Positions 33,440 through 44,284 of a stretch of 64,000 nt of DNA are shown one piece after another. Positions within the stretch are counted from its first letter, which is position 1, and every line of letters begins with the position of its first letter. This DNA comes from an uncultured Opitutia bacterium. GTDB taxonomy: Bacteria > Verrucomicrobiota > Verrucomicrobiia > Opitutales > Opitutaceae. The position numbers and the translations under genes were made by a program. The stretch is taken from assembly GCA_903900845.1 (NCBI GenBank), contig CAIUOU010000153.1:1-64000 (forward strand). Direction: 5' to 3'. The notes below the pieces were generated by a model, which was given only the letters and a program-made list of their open reading frames with translations, was not told where the DNA came from and ran no database searches.

Positions 33440-34203
33440 ACGGCCAGGCCGTCCGCGCGGATTTCAACGACCTGCTCGCTGTCGTCCATTACACGAAGGC
33501 GGCGCACGAGCTCGGGCTCTGGGCTTCCGAGGAGGCGTTGATCCGGCGCTTTTTCACTGAGCCCGCGGCACCGCTCCTCGAGGCGGGCTGCGGAGCCGGG
33601 CGCGTCACCCTGGGCCTGTGGCGACTTGGCCACCGGAATCTCACCGCGTTCGACTTCGCCGAGGAGCTGGTCGACCAGGGGGTGAGCCTCGCCGCGGAGC
33701 GCCGCGCGGAGGGCATCACCTTTCTCCACGACGACGCCACCGCTCCCGCCCGGTTGAGCGCGCCACCCGGAGGCTTCGGCGGCGCGCTGTTCATGTTCAA
33801 CGGGCTCATGCAGATCCCGGGACGCGCCAACCGCCGTCGCGCCTTGCTCGCCCTGCACCGCCTTTGCCGGCCGGGCGCCCCGTTGCTTTTCACCACGCAC
33901 GACCGCGACTGGTCGCCGACGGAGCGGGCCCTCTGGCGCCTGGAGGCCGCCCGCTGGGAACGGGGCGAGCAGGACCCGCGGCTGTTGGAGTTCGGCGACC
34001 GCTACTTCAGCGACGACACCGGCCGCACGTTCATGCACCTGCCCGACCGCGCGGAGATCCTCGCCGATCTCGCCGCCACCGGCTGGCGCCACGCGTTCGA
34101 CGCGCTGCGGCACGAGGTCGCCCGCGAGTCACGCGCGGTGCGGGATTTTTCCGACGAGTGCCGCTTCTGGGCGGCCCACCGCGCCGCGACGCCCGCCGCC
34201 TAG
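33421..34203 (+). CDS. class I SAM-dependent methyltransferase
   Basis: The only sensible start is the GTG at 33421, inside the end of the preceding methyltransferase, giving 260 residues. The SAM-binding motif LLEAGCGAGRVTLGLWRLGH, the acidic AFDFAEELVDQG and the FNGLMQIPG region identify a Methyltransf_25/11-like fold. The substrate is unknown. The gene ends in a CTAG where its stop codon overlaps the hrpB stop on the other strand. Confidence 0.8.
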   Translation: MEARPIDGQAVRADFNDLLAVVHYTKAAHELGLWASEEALIRRFFTEPAAPLLEAGCGAGRVTLGLWRLGHRNLTAFDFAEELVDQGVSLAAERRAEGITFLHDDATAPARLSAPPGGFGGALFMFNGLMQIPGRANRRRALLALHRLCRPGAPLLFTTHDRDWSPTERALWRLEAARWERGEQDPRLLEFGDRYFSDDTGRTFMHLPDRAEILADLAATGWRHAFDALRHEVARESRAVRDFSDECRFWAAHRAATPAA

Positions 34204-36779
34204 CGCCACTCGTGCCGCGGATAGCGTCGCGAGAGCTCAGCCTTCACCTTCGGGTACATGTCGCGCCAAAACGCCGAGAGGTCGTCCGTCACCTGGATCG
34301 GCCGCTGGTTCGGCGCCAGCACCTCGATCTTCACCGGTACCCGGCCGTGCCCGACCGCGAACCGACCATCGATGCCGTAAAGTTCCTGGATCCGCGCGCT
34401 GAGCACCGGCGGCCCCTCCTGGTGGTAAGTGAGGCGAGACCGGCGTCCGTTGCCCATGACCAGCCGCTCGGGCAGATAATCGTCGAGCACCGCGAACTGC
34501 TCCGCGGTGAGCCATTCGCGCAGCACCGGCATCACCGGCTTGTCCTTGATGCCGCGGTAACCGGCCTCCCCGTAGCATACCTGCTCCACCAGCGTCGCGC
34601 GGTCCGCCTCCGTGATCGGGGTGACTTCCAACTCGGGGAACCATTCGGCGAGCCGGTTGACCCGCGTGATCCACTGCTCGACCGCCTCGTCCCACGCCTC
34701 AAGCCGCATCCGCCCGGCGAGCACCTCACGCGCCAAGAGCCGCGCGGCCGCGTCGGGCGGCACGTCGTCACCGCCGACCTTCGCCTCCAGCACCAGGTCG
34801 CGGAAACACCGCTCGCGCCGCGCGATCACCCGCCGCGTCTGCTCGTCGTACGCCACGCCTTTCGTCTCCACCAGGCCGCCCGGGAAGAGCTCGCCCAGCC
34901 ACGACTCCTCAATCGCCGTCGCCAGTGAAAGCAGTACCGTGACCTCGCCGCCGCGGCCGCCGATCTCGCTGATCTCGGCTGCCACCAGCAGCGGAGCCTT
35001 CGCCACCGCGCTCTCGCGCGCCAGCATGCCGCGCCGGCGGTGGACGATTTCGCACCGCAGGGTGCCGGCGTCGAGGCGCCGCGCCACGTGGTCGGAAAAG
35101 CCGGCCAGCACGCACTTGCGAACGTCATCATCGCGGTACGGCCGCTCCGAGGCGTCCAGCCCCTCGCCTTCCGCGATCTCCAGGAATTGGGCGAACAGCG
35201 GGCCCACCTGCCGCGCGGCCTGCGCGTGGATGCCGAGACGCCGGCACGCCTCCAGGTCGAAGCGTTCCTTCTCCGCGTGCCGCCACGCACGCATGAGCAG
35301 GAAGAAGTCACTCGCCTGCTCCTCGCCCAGGACCTCCTCGCGCAGCTCCTCCGTCCGCCGGTCCACCCCGCGCAGCAGGAAACTCCGACCCTGCGTGAGC
35401 GCCGCCATCAGCGCCACCGGGCGCACACACCCGCGCTCCTGCGCCGCGAGGAACATCCGCGCGTAGCGGGGATGAACCGGAAACCGCAGCATCCGCCGGC
35501 CCGTCTCGGTGATCCGGCCGCCGCGCGCCGGCGCGCCGTCCGCGGGCTCCTCCACGGGCTCCAGCGCAACGAGATCCGTCAGCAATTCCTCCGCTCGCTC
35601 CAAGGCCCTGGGCTCCGGAGCCTCCAGCCACGGAAACGCCGCGACGTCGTCGACCCCCGCCGCTTTCAGCGTGAGGACCACCTCCGCGAGATCCAGCCGG
35701 CGAACCTCGGGCAATTCCTGAGCGGGACGCCGCGCATGCTCGGACTCGGTCCAGAGCCGCACCGCGACACCCGGCGCCGTGCGCCCCGCGCGGCCGGCGC
35801 GCTGGTCGGCGCTCGCGGCGGAGATTTTCTCCACCAGCAGCGTGTTGATGCCGCGGTGCGGGTCGAAACGCGCCACGCGCGCGAGACCCGAGTCGACCAC
35901 CGCCGTGACCCCGTCGATCGTGAGCGACGTCTCCGCGACGTTGGTTGACACGATGATCTTCCGTTCCGCGCAGCGCGCCACCGCGCGGTCCTGCTGCTCC
36001 ACCGGCAACTCCCCGTGCAACGGCAGGAGCGCGAAACCGCGGAGCGCGCGACTGGCGTCGAGCGCCTGCAGCGTGCGCGAGATCTCGTAGGCGCCGGGCA
36101 TGAAGACCAACAGGTCACCGTCGGTGCGGGCGGCGATGCGCTCGCACTCGCGGGCCGCCGCCTCCCAGACGGGCTCCCGCTCGAAATCCACCGCGCGCGG
36201 CAGATACTCAACCCGCACCGGGAAACTCCGGCCCTGCGAGACGAGCGTCGCCGCCGGCGCCAAGTAAGACTCCAGCCTCGCCGTCTCCAAGGTCGCCGAC
36301 ATCACGACGATCCGGAGGTCGGGCCGCGTCGTGCGCTGAATCTGCAAAGCGCGCGCCAGCGAGATGTCGCCGTGCAGATGGCGCTCGTGAAACTCATCGA
36401 AGATGACCGCCGCCACGCCGGGCAGACGCGGGTCGAACGACATTTGCCGGAGCAGGATGCCCTCGGTCACGAATCGGATCCGCGTACGCTCGCTCACCCG
36501 CGACTCGAGCCGGATCTGGTAACCGACGGTTTCGCCCAGCCGTGTGCCGGCCTCCTCCGCGACGCGCCGCGCCAGCATCCGCGCCGCGAGCCGCCGGGGC
36601 TGCAGCACGACCACCTCACCCTTTGCACCCAGCAGTCCGTGCCGCAGGAGCATCTGCGGGATCTGCGTCGATTTACCCGACCCCGTTGGCGCCTGCACGA
36701 TCACGCGGCCGTGCTCCCGCAGGGCCGCGACAAGCCCGGACTCGAGCTCGTAGACGGGAAGTTCGCGGGGCGCAGGCAT
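34200..36779 (-). CDS. hrpB: ATP-dependent helicase HrpB
   Basis: 859 residues, a DEAH/RHA helicase of the HrpB branch. It shows Walker A APTGSGKST (30-38), DEFHERH (128-134) where RHA helicases have DEAH, MSATLET, and motif VI QRAGRAGR. The HA2-like region follows. The C-terminal HrpB-specific domain ends in APNQRPIQVTDDLSAFWR and SRRYPRHEW. Full length. The family role (RNA or RNP remodelling) is poorly defined. The gene's start region faces the structured RNA locus. Confidence 0.95.
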   Translation of the reverse strand: MPAPRELPVYELESGLVAALREHGRVIVQAPTGSGKSTQIPQMLLRHGLLGAKGEVVVLQPRRLAARMLARRVAEEAGTRLGETVGYQIRLESRVSERTRIRFVTEGILLRQMSFDPRLPGVAAVIFDEFHERHLHGDISLARALQIQRTTRPDLRIVVMSATLETARLESYLAPAATLVSQGRSFPVRVEYLPRAVDFEREPVWEAAARECERIAARTDGDLLVFMPGAYEISRTLQALDASRALRGFALLPLHGELPVEQQDRAVARCAERKIIVSTNVAETSLTIDGVTAVVDSGLARVARFDPHRGINTLLVEKISAASADQRAGRAGRTAPGVAVRLWTESEHARRPAQELPEVRRLDLAEVVLTLKAAGVDDVAAFPWLEAPEPRALERAEELLTDLVALEPVEEPADGAPARGGRITETGRRMLRFPVHPRYARMFLAAQERGCVRPVALMAALTQGRSFLLRGVDRRTEELREEVLGEEQASDFFLLMRAWRHAEKERFDLEACRRLGIHAQAARQVGPLFAQFLEIAEGEGLDASERPYRDDDVRKCVLAGFSDHVARRLDAGTLRCEIVHRRRGMLARESAVAKAPLLVAAEISEIGGRGGEVTVLLSLATAIEESWLGELFPGGLVETKGVAYDEQTRRVIARRERCFRDLVLEAKVGGDDVPPDAAARLLAREVLAGRMRLEAWDEAVEQWITRVNRLAEWFPELEVTPITEADRATLVEQVCYGEAGYRGIKDKPVMPVLREWLTAEQFAVLDDYLPERLVMGNGRRSRLTYHQEGPPVLSARIQELYGIDGRFAVGHGRVPVKIEVLAPNQRPIQVTDDLSAFWRDMYPKVKAELSRRYPRHEWR

Positions 36780-36835
36780 GGCGCGCTGGAGGAAAGCGGG
36801 ATTGCTCCGGGCGCGAAGCCAAAAGCGCCGGACGT

Positions 36836-36899
36836 GGTGAACAACCTGTGCCGGACGTTGCTCCCAAGTTGTTCACCGTTTCCGCAGGTGAACAAGTTG
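36836..36899. promoter_or_regulatory. three GGTGAACAA words: candidate operator array between hrpB and the RNA locus
   Basis: GGTGAACAAC at 36836-36845 (plus), AAGTTGTTCACC at 36866-36877 (the same word on the minus strand), and GGTGAACAAGTTG at 36887-36899 (plus). The second and third copies form an inverted repeat separated by 9 bases. They lie 57-120 bases upstream of hrpB and just before the structured RNA, as an operator for a dimeric regulator would. The regulator is unknown. Confidence 0.45.
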
Positions 36900-36959
36900 C
36901 GCGGAACATAACCTTCCTTTTCCCGCGCGGCGCCGCACCTTCCTCCCTGTTCCTTGATA

Positions 36960-37818
36960 GAACAGCCGAGGCGCAGCGGCCTGAAAAACGTCGCTGAAGG
37001 CGCGGCTGGGATAATCCCGGGCGACCGGGGAATGGAGGGTGGCAGCTGGTGCCGCCCTCCCCTCAAGTCGGCGAAAGCCGGCGGGAGGCACATCTCACCA
37101 GTTCCTCTGGCCGGAGTCGTGTCCGGTCAGTTCACACACGAATCAGGAACTGTGCGGCGAGGCGCGATTAGAAACCGTGCTCAGCCGAGTCAGGCCCGCG
37201 GGGAGTTTCGACCCGCGCGCCGACGCAGTTACCCCAGAGGGTATCGGTTGTTACTGCGCTGACCAGAACGCAGCCTTGGTTTCCGGCGGGTCCACCCCGC
37301 CAAAAGGCCCGGTCCTTTGTGGACAGGGCGCGCAAGGGAATCAGGGCGGCGCGGAGAGAACGGACCTGGCAAAGTCCGCGAAATCTCCTCACTGGGGCGG
37401 TCCCGTAAAGCGGGATCACCCCGCTGCAAAAGCGAAAGGCAACCTTAGAGGTAAGAGGCCAGACCCGTAACGCGGGGCAAACGGCCGGTCAAAAACCGGT
37501 GCCGTCCCCGTGGCAACGGTGGTGACGCGAGAGCATGAAGTTTGCAGGCGTGTCAGCACCACGTCCGGCGCGAACCTTCCGGCAGGAAGGATCCGAACTG
37601 GGCGAAGAGGCCTCACTCGAAGATTCCGACCGGCAACGGTCGGGACGGTCCCGCCATGAGACCGAGACATCCGCATGCCGCGGAGAGTGGCGTCGGGAAG
37701 CACACCGCCCGCGAAAGCGAGAGCGCCAAAGCGTGTGCCGATGGGGAAGAGCGCGTGGCGAACGCCCACTCCCGCAATTAGCCCCGGAGGTTTCAAAACC
37801 TCCGGGGCTTTTTGTTTT
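36960..37818 (+). ncRNA. large structured non-coding RNA candidate, about 860 nt, class not recognised
   Basis: Between hrpB and an esterase there is no credible gene, but hairpins follow one another on the plus strand. A helix AGCCG/CGGCT (36964/37003) encloses CAGCG/CGCTG. An 11-bp stem lies at 37034-37044/37050-37060. CGGC-GAAA-GCCG is at 37069-37080, and an 8-bp stem CTGGCCGG/CCGGTCAG lies inside AGTTCCT/AGGAACT. A compound stem closes CCCG-TAAAG-CGGG (about 37400-37425). Further stems include ACGGC/GCCGT, CCTTCC/GGAAGG, and CCGACCG/CGGTCGG. A 3' multibranch domain is closed by 37682-37693 with 37762-37773 and contains GCACAC/GTGTGC and CGC-GAAA-GCG. The locus ends in an intrinsic terminator. 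The 5' end is approximate. I see no RNase P, tmRNA, SRP, 6S or group I/II intron core motifs. It could also be a very long leader of the downstream esterase. Confidence 0.72.
37781..37818 (+). terminator. strong intrinsic terminator of the structured RNA
   Basis: A perfect 12-bp stem (GCCCCGGAGGTT/AACCTCCGGGGC) with TCAA loop at 37793-37796, followed by TTTTTGTTTT. No A-run precedes the stem, so it works for plus-strand transcription only. It fixes the direction and 3' end of the RNA and lies 58 bases before the esterase ATG. Confidence 0.93.
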
Positions 37819-37876: not shown

Positions 37877-38782
37877 ATGAAACCCTCACCCCGCCTCATC
37901 CTGCTGGCGCTCTGCGCCGCTCCCCTCCTGCCCGCGGCCGAGAAGGCCGTCGCTCCGAAGGCCGTTCCCTACGCCCAGATCCTCGGTCCCATCCGCCTCT
38001 ACGACGGCGATGCGCCCGGTGCGCTCGGCCAGCGCCCGCAGGACATCCCCACGCTCACCCCTTTTCCCGCCGACGCCGCGCGCAAGACCGGCGCCTCGAT
38101 CCTGATCTTCCCCGGCGGCGGCTACGGCGGCCTCGCCGAGCACGAGGGCACCGGCTACGCGGAGTGGTTCGCCGCCCGCGGGATCACGGCCTATGTACTC
38201 AAGTACCGGCTCGGCTCGGCCGGCTACCGCCACCCGGTCATGCTGAACGACGCCGCCCGCGCGTTGCGCATGGTGCGCGCCTTCGCGAAACGCGACGGCC
38301 TTGATCCGGCGAAAGTCGGCGTCATCGGCTCCTCCGCCGGCGGCCATCTGGCTTCGACGCTGGTCACCCATTTCACTCCGGGAAAACCGGACGCCGCCGA
38401 CCGCGTCGAGCGTGAGAGCTCGCGACCCGACCTCGGCATACTTTGTTACCCGGTGATCTCGCTGCTCGAGTTCGCCCACTCCGGTTCGCGCAGGAATCTG
38501 CTCGGCGACAACCCCGACCCCGAACTGGTCCGAAAGCTCTCGAGTGAGTTGCAGGTCACCAAGGAGACCCCACCCTGCTTTGTCTGGCACACCGTCGAGG
38601 ACAAGGGCGTGCCGGTGGAGAACGCGCTGCTCTTCGCCTCGGCGCTGCGGAGGAACGGCGTGCCCTTCTCCCTGCATGTCTACGAGAAGGGTGCCCACGG
38701 GCTGGGCTTCGGCCGGCCGGAAAAACCCGCTCCGCCCTGGGGTTCGCAATTGGAGCATTGGCTCAAGGAGCGGGGGTTTTAA
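37877..38782 (+). CDS. secreted alpha/beta hydrolase, acetyl-xylan esterase/lipase-like
   Basis: The ATG at 37877 starts a signal peptide (KPSPRLILLALCAAPLLPAA), giving 301 residues. A longer in-frame ATG lies inside the RNA locus and is rejected. The serine hydrolase triad is visible: HG-type oxyanion segment IFPGGGYGGLAEHEG, nucleophile GSSAGGHLAS, Asp in HTVEDKGVPVENAL, and His in EKGAHGLGF. The fold and the GGGYGGL signature match feruloyl/acetyl esterases of the BD-FAE type acting on plant polysaccharides. It is the first gene downstream of the structured RNA terminator. Confidence 0.85.
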   Translation: MKPSPRLILLALCAAPLLPAAEKAVAPKAVPYAQILGPIRLYDGDAPGALGQRPQDIPTLTPFPADAARKTGASILIFPGGGYGGLAEHEGTGYAEWFAARGITAYVLKYRLGSAGYRHPVMLNDAARALRMVRAFAKRDGLDPAKVGVIGSSAGGHLASTLVTHFTPGKPDAADRVERESSRPDLGILCYPVISLLEFAHSGSRRNLLGDNPDPELVRKLSSELQVTKETPPCFVWHTVEDKGVPVENALLFASALRRNGVPFSLHVYEKGAHGLGFGRPEKPAPPWGSQLEHWLKERGF

Positions 38783-42346: not shown

Positions 42347-42460
42347 GCCGGACTTTCGCCCGGCCCCGGGGCACGCCCCGGAAGCGGAAACCTTGCCTTG
42401 CTTCCCGCGGGCACGATCCGCAGGTTGGACCTTTTTCCAACCGCCAGACCTCGTCCGTCC

Positions 42461-44284
<1,824 letters not shown>

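Follow-up and report, generated by a model that had tools for sequence, protein, structure and literature searches.

GOLLD and ROOL are described, in the excerpt of PMC12286853 drawn on here, as long bacterial RNAs with extensive structure and pseudoknots and with no function ascribed to them, which are encoded in phages and prophages and often lie near tRNA islands. Transcription control through boxA is known from rRNA and CRISPR arrays. In E. coli, boxA prevents Rho-dependent termination in a NusB-dependent manner (PMC4807359, in part), and boxA elements are found upstream of CRISPR arrays (PMC7862264, in part).

The locus considered here lies in a 64,000-nucleotide stretch of DNA from an uncultured Opitutia bacterium, which was analysed as a whole (the window). 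A 96-base domain at positions 37682-37777, previously picked out from the letters alone, consists of the 3'-terminal part of a MISL RNA (Rfam RF03079) and eleven further bases. The RNA belongs to an already catalogued Rfam family, which was reportedly first described in an earlier published paper. A window of a MISL RNA has been chemically mapped (PMC10925082, in part). The open-licence literature, a body that leaves out most subscription journals, yielded neither a published function for MISL nor a paper linking MISL to boxA; a term search of PMC11109978 matched neither MISL nor boxA.

The window copy resembles the described family in giving a full-length match, far above the gathering score, to which are added here a boxA-like element and a 5' leader stem, a three-pair extension of a hairpin past the Rfam end, and five pseudoknots. 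MISL can be likened to GOLLD and ROOL by description, with no homology claimed, as a long, structured and pseudoknotted RNA for which no function was found in print. It differs from them in its setting. No MISL match was obtained in viral contigs with two patterns or in plasmids and phages with blastn, and copies lie on the 4.3- and 6.1-Mb contigs of two single-contig genomes (G078 and G137). Nor is a tRNA-island setting seen in the window, where a single tRNA was found, at 426-502. The likeness to Nus/boxA control of rRNA and CRISPR arrays is that a boxA-like element appears to start a long untranslated transcript; the MISL element, which is read from sequence, differs in touching the predicted start site and in having a partly symmetric flank.

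Identity, extent and distribution of the MISL gene

The covariance-model match in the window scored 508.4 bits, compared to a gathering score (the curated cut-off) of 274.6 bits, and covered the model over its full length. Non-standard pairs were a minority in the cmscan alignment, so that the Rfam consensus structure is kept. It was the single RF03079 match in a genome-wide search of the source genome, and the whole RNA (36949-37775) folded with a z score of -7.95 (20 shuffles). The assignment of the 96 bases to a structured RNA in the sequence-only reading is thus borne out. The gene is flanked by hrpB (34200-36779, minus strand) on one side and an alpha/beta-hydrolase gene (37877-38782) on the other, and bipA lies in an open reading frame (ORF) at 42398-44284. 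We read MISL as a stand-alone RNA gene of about 0.86 kb with predicted boundaries, reaching from near 36949 to a terminator-like hairpin that ends at 37809 (Table 1).

Table 1. Features of the MISL locus in window coordinates, with pairing counts among homologues
Feature	Positions	Strand	Evidence or remark
-10-like hexamer CACCTT	36936-36941	+	YANNNT at -13 from the boxA-like element
boxA-like element GTTCCTTGATAGAAC	36949-36963	+	At or adjoining the predicted transcription start
5' leader stem-loop, outside the Rfam model	36963-37008 (arms 36963-36968, 37003-37008)	+	Moderate support
MISL RNA, Rfam RF03079, model positions 1-751 of 751	37009-37766	+	Covariance-model match, 508.4 bits, E 2.7e-153
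Pseudoknot 1	37117-37121 with 37137-37141	+	110/112, 109/113, 110/113, 113/113, 107/113 paired
Pseudoknot 2 (GGUUGU with GCAACC)	37246-37251 with 37439-37444	+	109-111 of 113 at each of six pairs
Pseudoknot 3	37424-37429 with 37542-37547	+	105/113, 106/113, 110/113, 111/113, 98/102, 104/111, with exchanges
Pseudoknot 4	Hairpin loop 37652-37656 (CGCCA) with 37688-37692 (UGGCG)	+	113/113 at all five pairs
Stem a (in Rfam)	37670-37674 with 37680-37684	+	578/632 cells paired, Rfam pair 37669-37685 included
Stem b (GCACAC/GTGTGC)	37700-37705 with 37733-37738, plus 37706-37731	+	737/749 cells paired, many compensatory changes
Stem b continuation	37707-37708 with 37723-37724	+	107/107 at each of two pairs
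CGC-GAAA-GCG apical hairpin	37710-37719	+	197/257 cells paired, many gaps, length varies
Pseudoknot 5	Terminal-hairpin loop 37757-37759 (GGC) with 37725-37727 (GCC)	+	107/107 at each pair
Terminal-hairpin extension past the Rfam end	37743-37745 with 37771-37773	+	105, 102, 106 of 107 paired
Terminal hairpin (in Rfam)	37751-37753 with 37763-37765	+	320/321 cells paired
Intrinsic terminator-like hairpin, then T run	37780-37809	+	13-pair stem, tail TTTTGTTTTC

RF03079 was detected in 30 of 57 relatives. At the level of the phylum, 31 of 387 genomes had it, including two from outside the class. The 96-base domain had been put forward as a good seed for a homology search, and it served well as one: a covariance model of the domain matched 96 of the 384 class genomes, and the full Rfam model matched 94 of them. 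Named contigs, scanned with a pattern, gave at least 118 stretches, none of which enters the pair counts below. Among the 80 matches listed, the titles were of what we take to be Verrucomicrobiota type, except for two entries titled 'bacterium isolate' and one titled 'Proteobacteria bacterium'. Several genera of the same family were without MISL among the 384 class genomes, which argues that MISL is not generally essential.

No stand-alone 3' domain was found, as matches of the domain model were MISL loci or lay no further than 100 bases from the end of a contig; because few candidates are scored in each genome, weak stand-alone copies could escape these searches. Three genomes were matched only by the domain model (G207, G226 and G356) and two held extra pieces (G250 and G364), all no more than 100 bases from a contig end, and one genome (G255) was matched only by the full model. 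Two genomes (G203 and G314) each had two full-length matches. The copies L081 and L099, in these two genomes, share altered terminal-hairpin loops, and a paralogous variant is possible.

Pairings in the 3' domain and pseudoknots

In the sequence-only reading, the 3' domain was closed by an outer helix between GGAGAGTGGCGT (37682-37693) and ACGCCCACTCCC (37762-37773), with the GCACAC/GTGTGC stem and the CGC-GAAA-GCG hairpin nested inside it. The letters and positions of all of these were correct, and the two outer strands are complementary in the window. Folded alone, the 96 bases (-39.8 kcal/mol) formed most of the outer helix and the GAAA hairpin, with the GCACAC/GTGTGC stem absent, and the minimum-energy fold of the whole RNA also preferred the outer helix. 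Because 24 of 200 shuffles folded at least as well as the 96 bases (z, -1.21), this folding energy is little better than chance for a GC-rich stretch.

The domain set comprised 119 loci minus 9, giving 110, which were reduced by identity to 107 unique homologous domains. Five of the omitted loci (L038, L040, L056, L076 and L088) were dropped because the anchor pattern matched elsewhere, not for a missing domain, and four (L028, L109, L117 and L118) had no anchor, being truncated, gapped or cut there. In the 107 domains, 896 of 1,177 cells of the outer helix were paired, a total carried by nearly invariant columns. The pairs 37691-37764, 37689-37766 and 37686-37770 were held in 48, 59 and 20 of the 107 domains, and thus failed in 59, 48 and 87. 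On 33 diverse domains, 65.8% of cells were paired and the covariation (0.073) equalled the shuffled mean (0.073), with 244 of 500 shuffles reaching it. The outer helix is therefore disrupted in homologues with no compensating changes, which is the outcome that the sequence-only reading had itself named as refuting, and it is rejected by them as the closing helix of the domain.

Both strands of the outer helix have better-supported partners. Stem a occupies bases 37682-37684 of the proposed helix, pseudoknot 4 provides the supported partner of its 5' strand, and the terminal hairpin uses its 3' strand. Stem a, stem b and the terminal hairpin stand side by side, and there is no single closed multibranch loop. 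The inner GCACAC/GTGTGC stem of the earlier nested structure was kept by compensatory change; the long closing helix fell away, and the GAAA hairpin proved variable. The three stems drawn in Rfam were paired across homologues (Table 1). In the 33 domains, the revised 3' structure, counted without 37669-37685, 37674-37680, 37709-37722 and the GAAA hairpin, had 95.7% of cells paired and a covariation of 0.405, and 0 of 500 shuffles were as high. These 3'-domain pairings are backed by covariation, the pair counts being corrected for relatedness by parsimony only. At the loci L100-L108 (family f56), stem b has a longer insertion in its apical part; at some f56 loci the downstream gene, judged by inspection of the sequence, resembles that of ribosomal protein L25.

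The central pair of the terminal hairpin (37752-37764) was AU in 52, CG in 47, UA in 7 and UG in 1 of the 107 domains, with 11 changes of state by parsimony on the tree of MISL itself. Its extension past the Rfam end varied to AU at 37745-37771 in one sequence and to AU (two sequences) and CG (one) at 37743-37773; the next pair, 37742-37774, failed (34/107). Two pseudoknots involve the 96-base domain, in agreement with the tertiary contacts of which it had been thought capable. Pseudoknot 4 showed exchanges at 37655-37689 (UA in 52, CG in 40 and UG in 21 sequences) and at 37656-37688 (AU in 100, GC in 12 and GU in 1), and two of its five pairs never vary. In pseudoknot 5, GC was replaced by AU in compensated form in 9 of the 107 sequences at 37726-37758 and in one at 37727-37757. 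Parsimony on the MISL tree gives four changes for each of the two columns of 37726-37758. The adjoining pair 37728-37756 failed (33/107). The firm pairs of this pseudoknot number only three, and ten of the 107 sequences show a compensated change. It is invariant, and so uninformative, in the 33-sequence set, and its support consists of the 107-domain counts and the parsimony.

The complementarity of the two strands in the window, and a minimum-energy fold of the 96 bases that holds most of the helix, favor an outer helix that closes the 3' domain as a multibranch loop. We consider this model scarcely credible, given that its pairs fail in the homologues at three positions, its covariation is that of shuffled columns, and its strands are better paired elsewhere. 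Alternatively, the helix might form only transiently, or as a second fold peculiar to this lineage, and compete as a folding intermediate or a switch with the terminal hairpin, as its presence in the minimum-energy folds of both the 96 bases and the whole RNA would allow. The helix is not kept across the family, however, and no conserved reader of such a switch was found among the neighboring genes, so we regard this alternative as most improbable. Minimum energy and evolution disagree on the outer helix, and the case illustrates how a minimum-energy helix in a GC-rich RNA can be contradicted by evolution.

A covariance model carries no pseudoknots. Covariation over the rest of the RNA was evaluated by an APC-corrected G-test, run with no phylogenetic null, on 113 full-length sequences, which remained when L028, L109, L117, L118 and L119 had been dropped and the resulting 114 reduced to 113. 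Thirty-four of the top 50 covarying column pairs were over 85% canonical, and the top 260 included 74 canonical pairs, among them helices absent from the printed Rfam structure line. Several isolated pairs in this list are probably noise or the result of shared ancestry. Outside the stems printed in Rfam, the test indicated pseudoknots 1, 2 and 3. Pseudoknot 1 showed CG/UA and GC/AU exchanges at its last two pairs, and pseudoknot 2 showed UA/CG/AU exchanges. The next inner pair of pseudoknot 3 (37430-37541) failed (45/113). All five pseudoknots are absent from the printed Rfam structure line; other drawings of MISL may already show them. A conserved hairpin loop, GAUUAGAAACC, at 37167-37177 resembles GAUUAGAUACC of 16S rRNA, probably by chance.

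The boxA-like element and predicted 5' end

Of 119 loci, 110 had a close variant of GTTC[ACT]TTGA[ACT]AGAAC ahead of the Rfam start, and in 106 of those 110 it lay 51 to 63 bases before the model start. At 13 of the 15 positions of the element the same base was found in at least 103 of 113 sequences, the exceptions being 36953 and 36958. The 15-mer GTTCNTTGANAGAAC occurred once per genome, at MISL, in seven of eight genomes and was absent from the eighth. A degenerate core of the element was found in 105 of 118 MISL leaders versus 13 of 7,612 control windows. On the sense strand of rRNA loci from the same class, it was matched in 13 of 29 leaders and in 8 of 30 spacers versus 1 of 59 antisense stretches, leaving 16 of the 29 leaders and 22 of the 30 spacers without the core. 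The core pattern behind the MISL and rRNA counts had been written after both sets had been seen. A looser pattern applied to longer stretches matched 16 of 31 rRNA leaders and 18 of 30 spacers.

The core thus resembles the rRNA boxA of the same lineage in a comparison at the level of the class, which rests on other genomes of the class, as a search did not find the 16S gene of the window genome itself. In one genome (G147), for example, the rRNA leader has GCTCATTGAAAACTG (L254) and MISL has GTTCATTGAAAGAAC (L041). At position five of the element, most MISL copies carry A or C, and most of those at rRNA carry T. We conclude that the 15-base element probably fits boxA.

In 82 of 113 loci (not de-duplicated), the element is preceded by a YANNNT hexamer whose first base lies 13 or 12 bases ahead of it, compared to 0 to 4 loci at each of the other listed positions. 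From this spacing, the RNA is predicted to start at or next to the boxA-like element; a strict sigma-70 scan returned no promoter at the hexamer of the window. The 5' leader stem, in counts made in a fixed register, was paired in 105, 87, 100 and 84 of 110 loci at 36965-37006, 36966-37005, 36967-37004 and 36968-37003, respectively, with several pair types. Its two outermost pairs (51 and 73 of 110) and the next two inner ones (47 and 42 of 110) were weak.

Further upstream, a position-locked TGTGNA[TCG]A was seen just before the expected -35 region, about 51 bases ahead of the boxA-like element, in 41 of 113 loci (L031 and L039, for example) versus 44 of 9,524 control windows; the window locus is not among them. 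It is possible that this motif is an activator site. Five loci match the DnaA-box-like TGTGNATAA. Three copies of GTGAACAA, in both orientations, lie at 36835-36898, between hrpB and the predicted MISL promoter.

Gene neighborhood and probable mode of action

Terminator scans of shuffled sequence averaged 1.9 sites, and the terminator-like site of the window is not significant alone. Across homologues, 99 of 115 loci had a terminator-like structure no more than 80 bases from the end of MISL, versus 4 of 575 shuffled stretches. The first gene-like ORF downstream shared the strand of MISL in 129 of 178 loci and opposed it in 48, and 1 locus had no ORF. This count prefers the frame with the stronger third-position GC, and 17 of 195 loci were too short to judge; a simpler ORF count (107 plus and 74 minus of 181) was distorted by shadow ORFs on the antisense strand of GC-rich DNA, an effect that also put the window locus itself into a minus-strand cluster.

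Neighbors were clustered for 195 unique loci out of 237, with all of the at least 118 stretches from the named-contig scan taken in and the 22 largest clusters listed; a few of the smaller clusters likewise contain antisense shadow ORFs. The flanking clusters are lineage-specific, and the largest covers 35 of the 195 loci. An upstream minus-strand cluster (35 loci) includes the window locus, where the gene is HrpB by Pfam. Downstream clusters include one that is BipA-like (25 loci) and two that we take, on inspection of the sequences, to be CysK-like (34 loci) and Rho-like (28 loci). No partner protein was found, as none of the 22 largest neighbor clusters spans all lineages.

Three other readings of the locus have to be weighed against a stand-alone RNA gene with a 5' boxA. 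The conserved 15-mer at 36949 could be a DNA operator or a part of the promoter rather than an RNA boxA. GTTC-N7-GAAC symmetry is present in 97 of the 110 loci with the element, this flanking complementarity could signal a hairpin or a site at which a protein binds the DNA, and the -10-like hexamer adjoins. However, compensatory change is essentially absent from the GTTC and GAAC arms, and where GCAC or GAAG stands in a locus the symmetry is lost and the core kept, for which reasons the element is read as linear. Its single occurrence per genome, confined to MISL in the seven genomes having it, and the core on the sense strand of rRNA leaders and spacers also speak against an operator, and we find this reading unlikely, although worth serious attention. 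MISL might also be a cis-acting leader, riboswitch-like or antiterminating, of the downstream gene. A conserved same-strand gene downstream with no terminator between, as expected of cis regulation, was not the arrangement found at MISL loci: the terminator-like hairpin comes next in most of them, 48 of 178 have their downstream ORF on the other strand, and the neighbors differ between lineages. A cis-acting leader is thus very unlikely. A cis effect of MISL in general is unlikely, with some room left for an effect on the downstream gene because 129 of the 178 loci have the nearest ORF on the MISL strand. Finally, several conserved pseudoknots and near-invariant stretches would suit a ribozyme or RNP enzyme, with an active core dependent on the five pseudoknots, rather than a scaffold; we know of no reported substrate or cleavage signature for MISL, and consider an enzyme quite unlikely.

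The explanation that we prefer, and consider likely as a whole, is that of a stand-alone MISL gene with the revised 3' fold, boxA/Nus transcription and a trans-acting particle as its product. Since the gene begins with a boxA-like element, NusB and ribosomal protein S10 would load there on the nascent RNA, as on rRNA. The Nus-modified polymerase might then be helped through the long untranslated transcript, and folding of the RNA might be helped as well. The strand UGGCG reaches back to the preceding hairpin loop (pseudoknot 4) and the loop of the terminal hairpin to the base of stem b (pseudoknot 5), and these two contacts would lock the 3' end just before termination. We read MISL as a structured RNA that stands alone and acts in trans, probably the product of a Nus-modified polymerase, and the biological role proposed for it would most likely be that of a scaffold of an RNA-protein or RNA-only particle. 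We lean toward the view that an rRNA-style transcription complex makes MISL, with Nus factors loaded by the 5' boxA carrying the polymerase and aiding the folding of a non-ribosomal RNA with five pseudoknots. According to an E. coli study, antitermination is not what Nus factors chiefly do at rRNA (PMC4807359, in part), and on this evidence a role in folding or maturation is as possible for MISL as antitermination.

The corrected 3' domain, the five homologue-supported pseudoknots and the proposed 5' end give boundaries within which MISL can be expressed, probed and imaged. If the proposal is true, boxA on the non-ribosomal MISL suggests a wider service of the Nus complex to long structured RNAs, and other giant bacterial RNAs could carry the same boxA signal.
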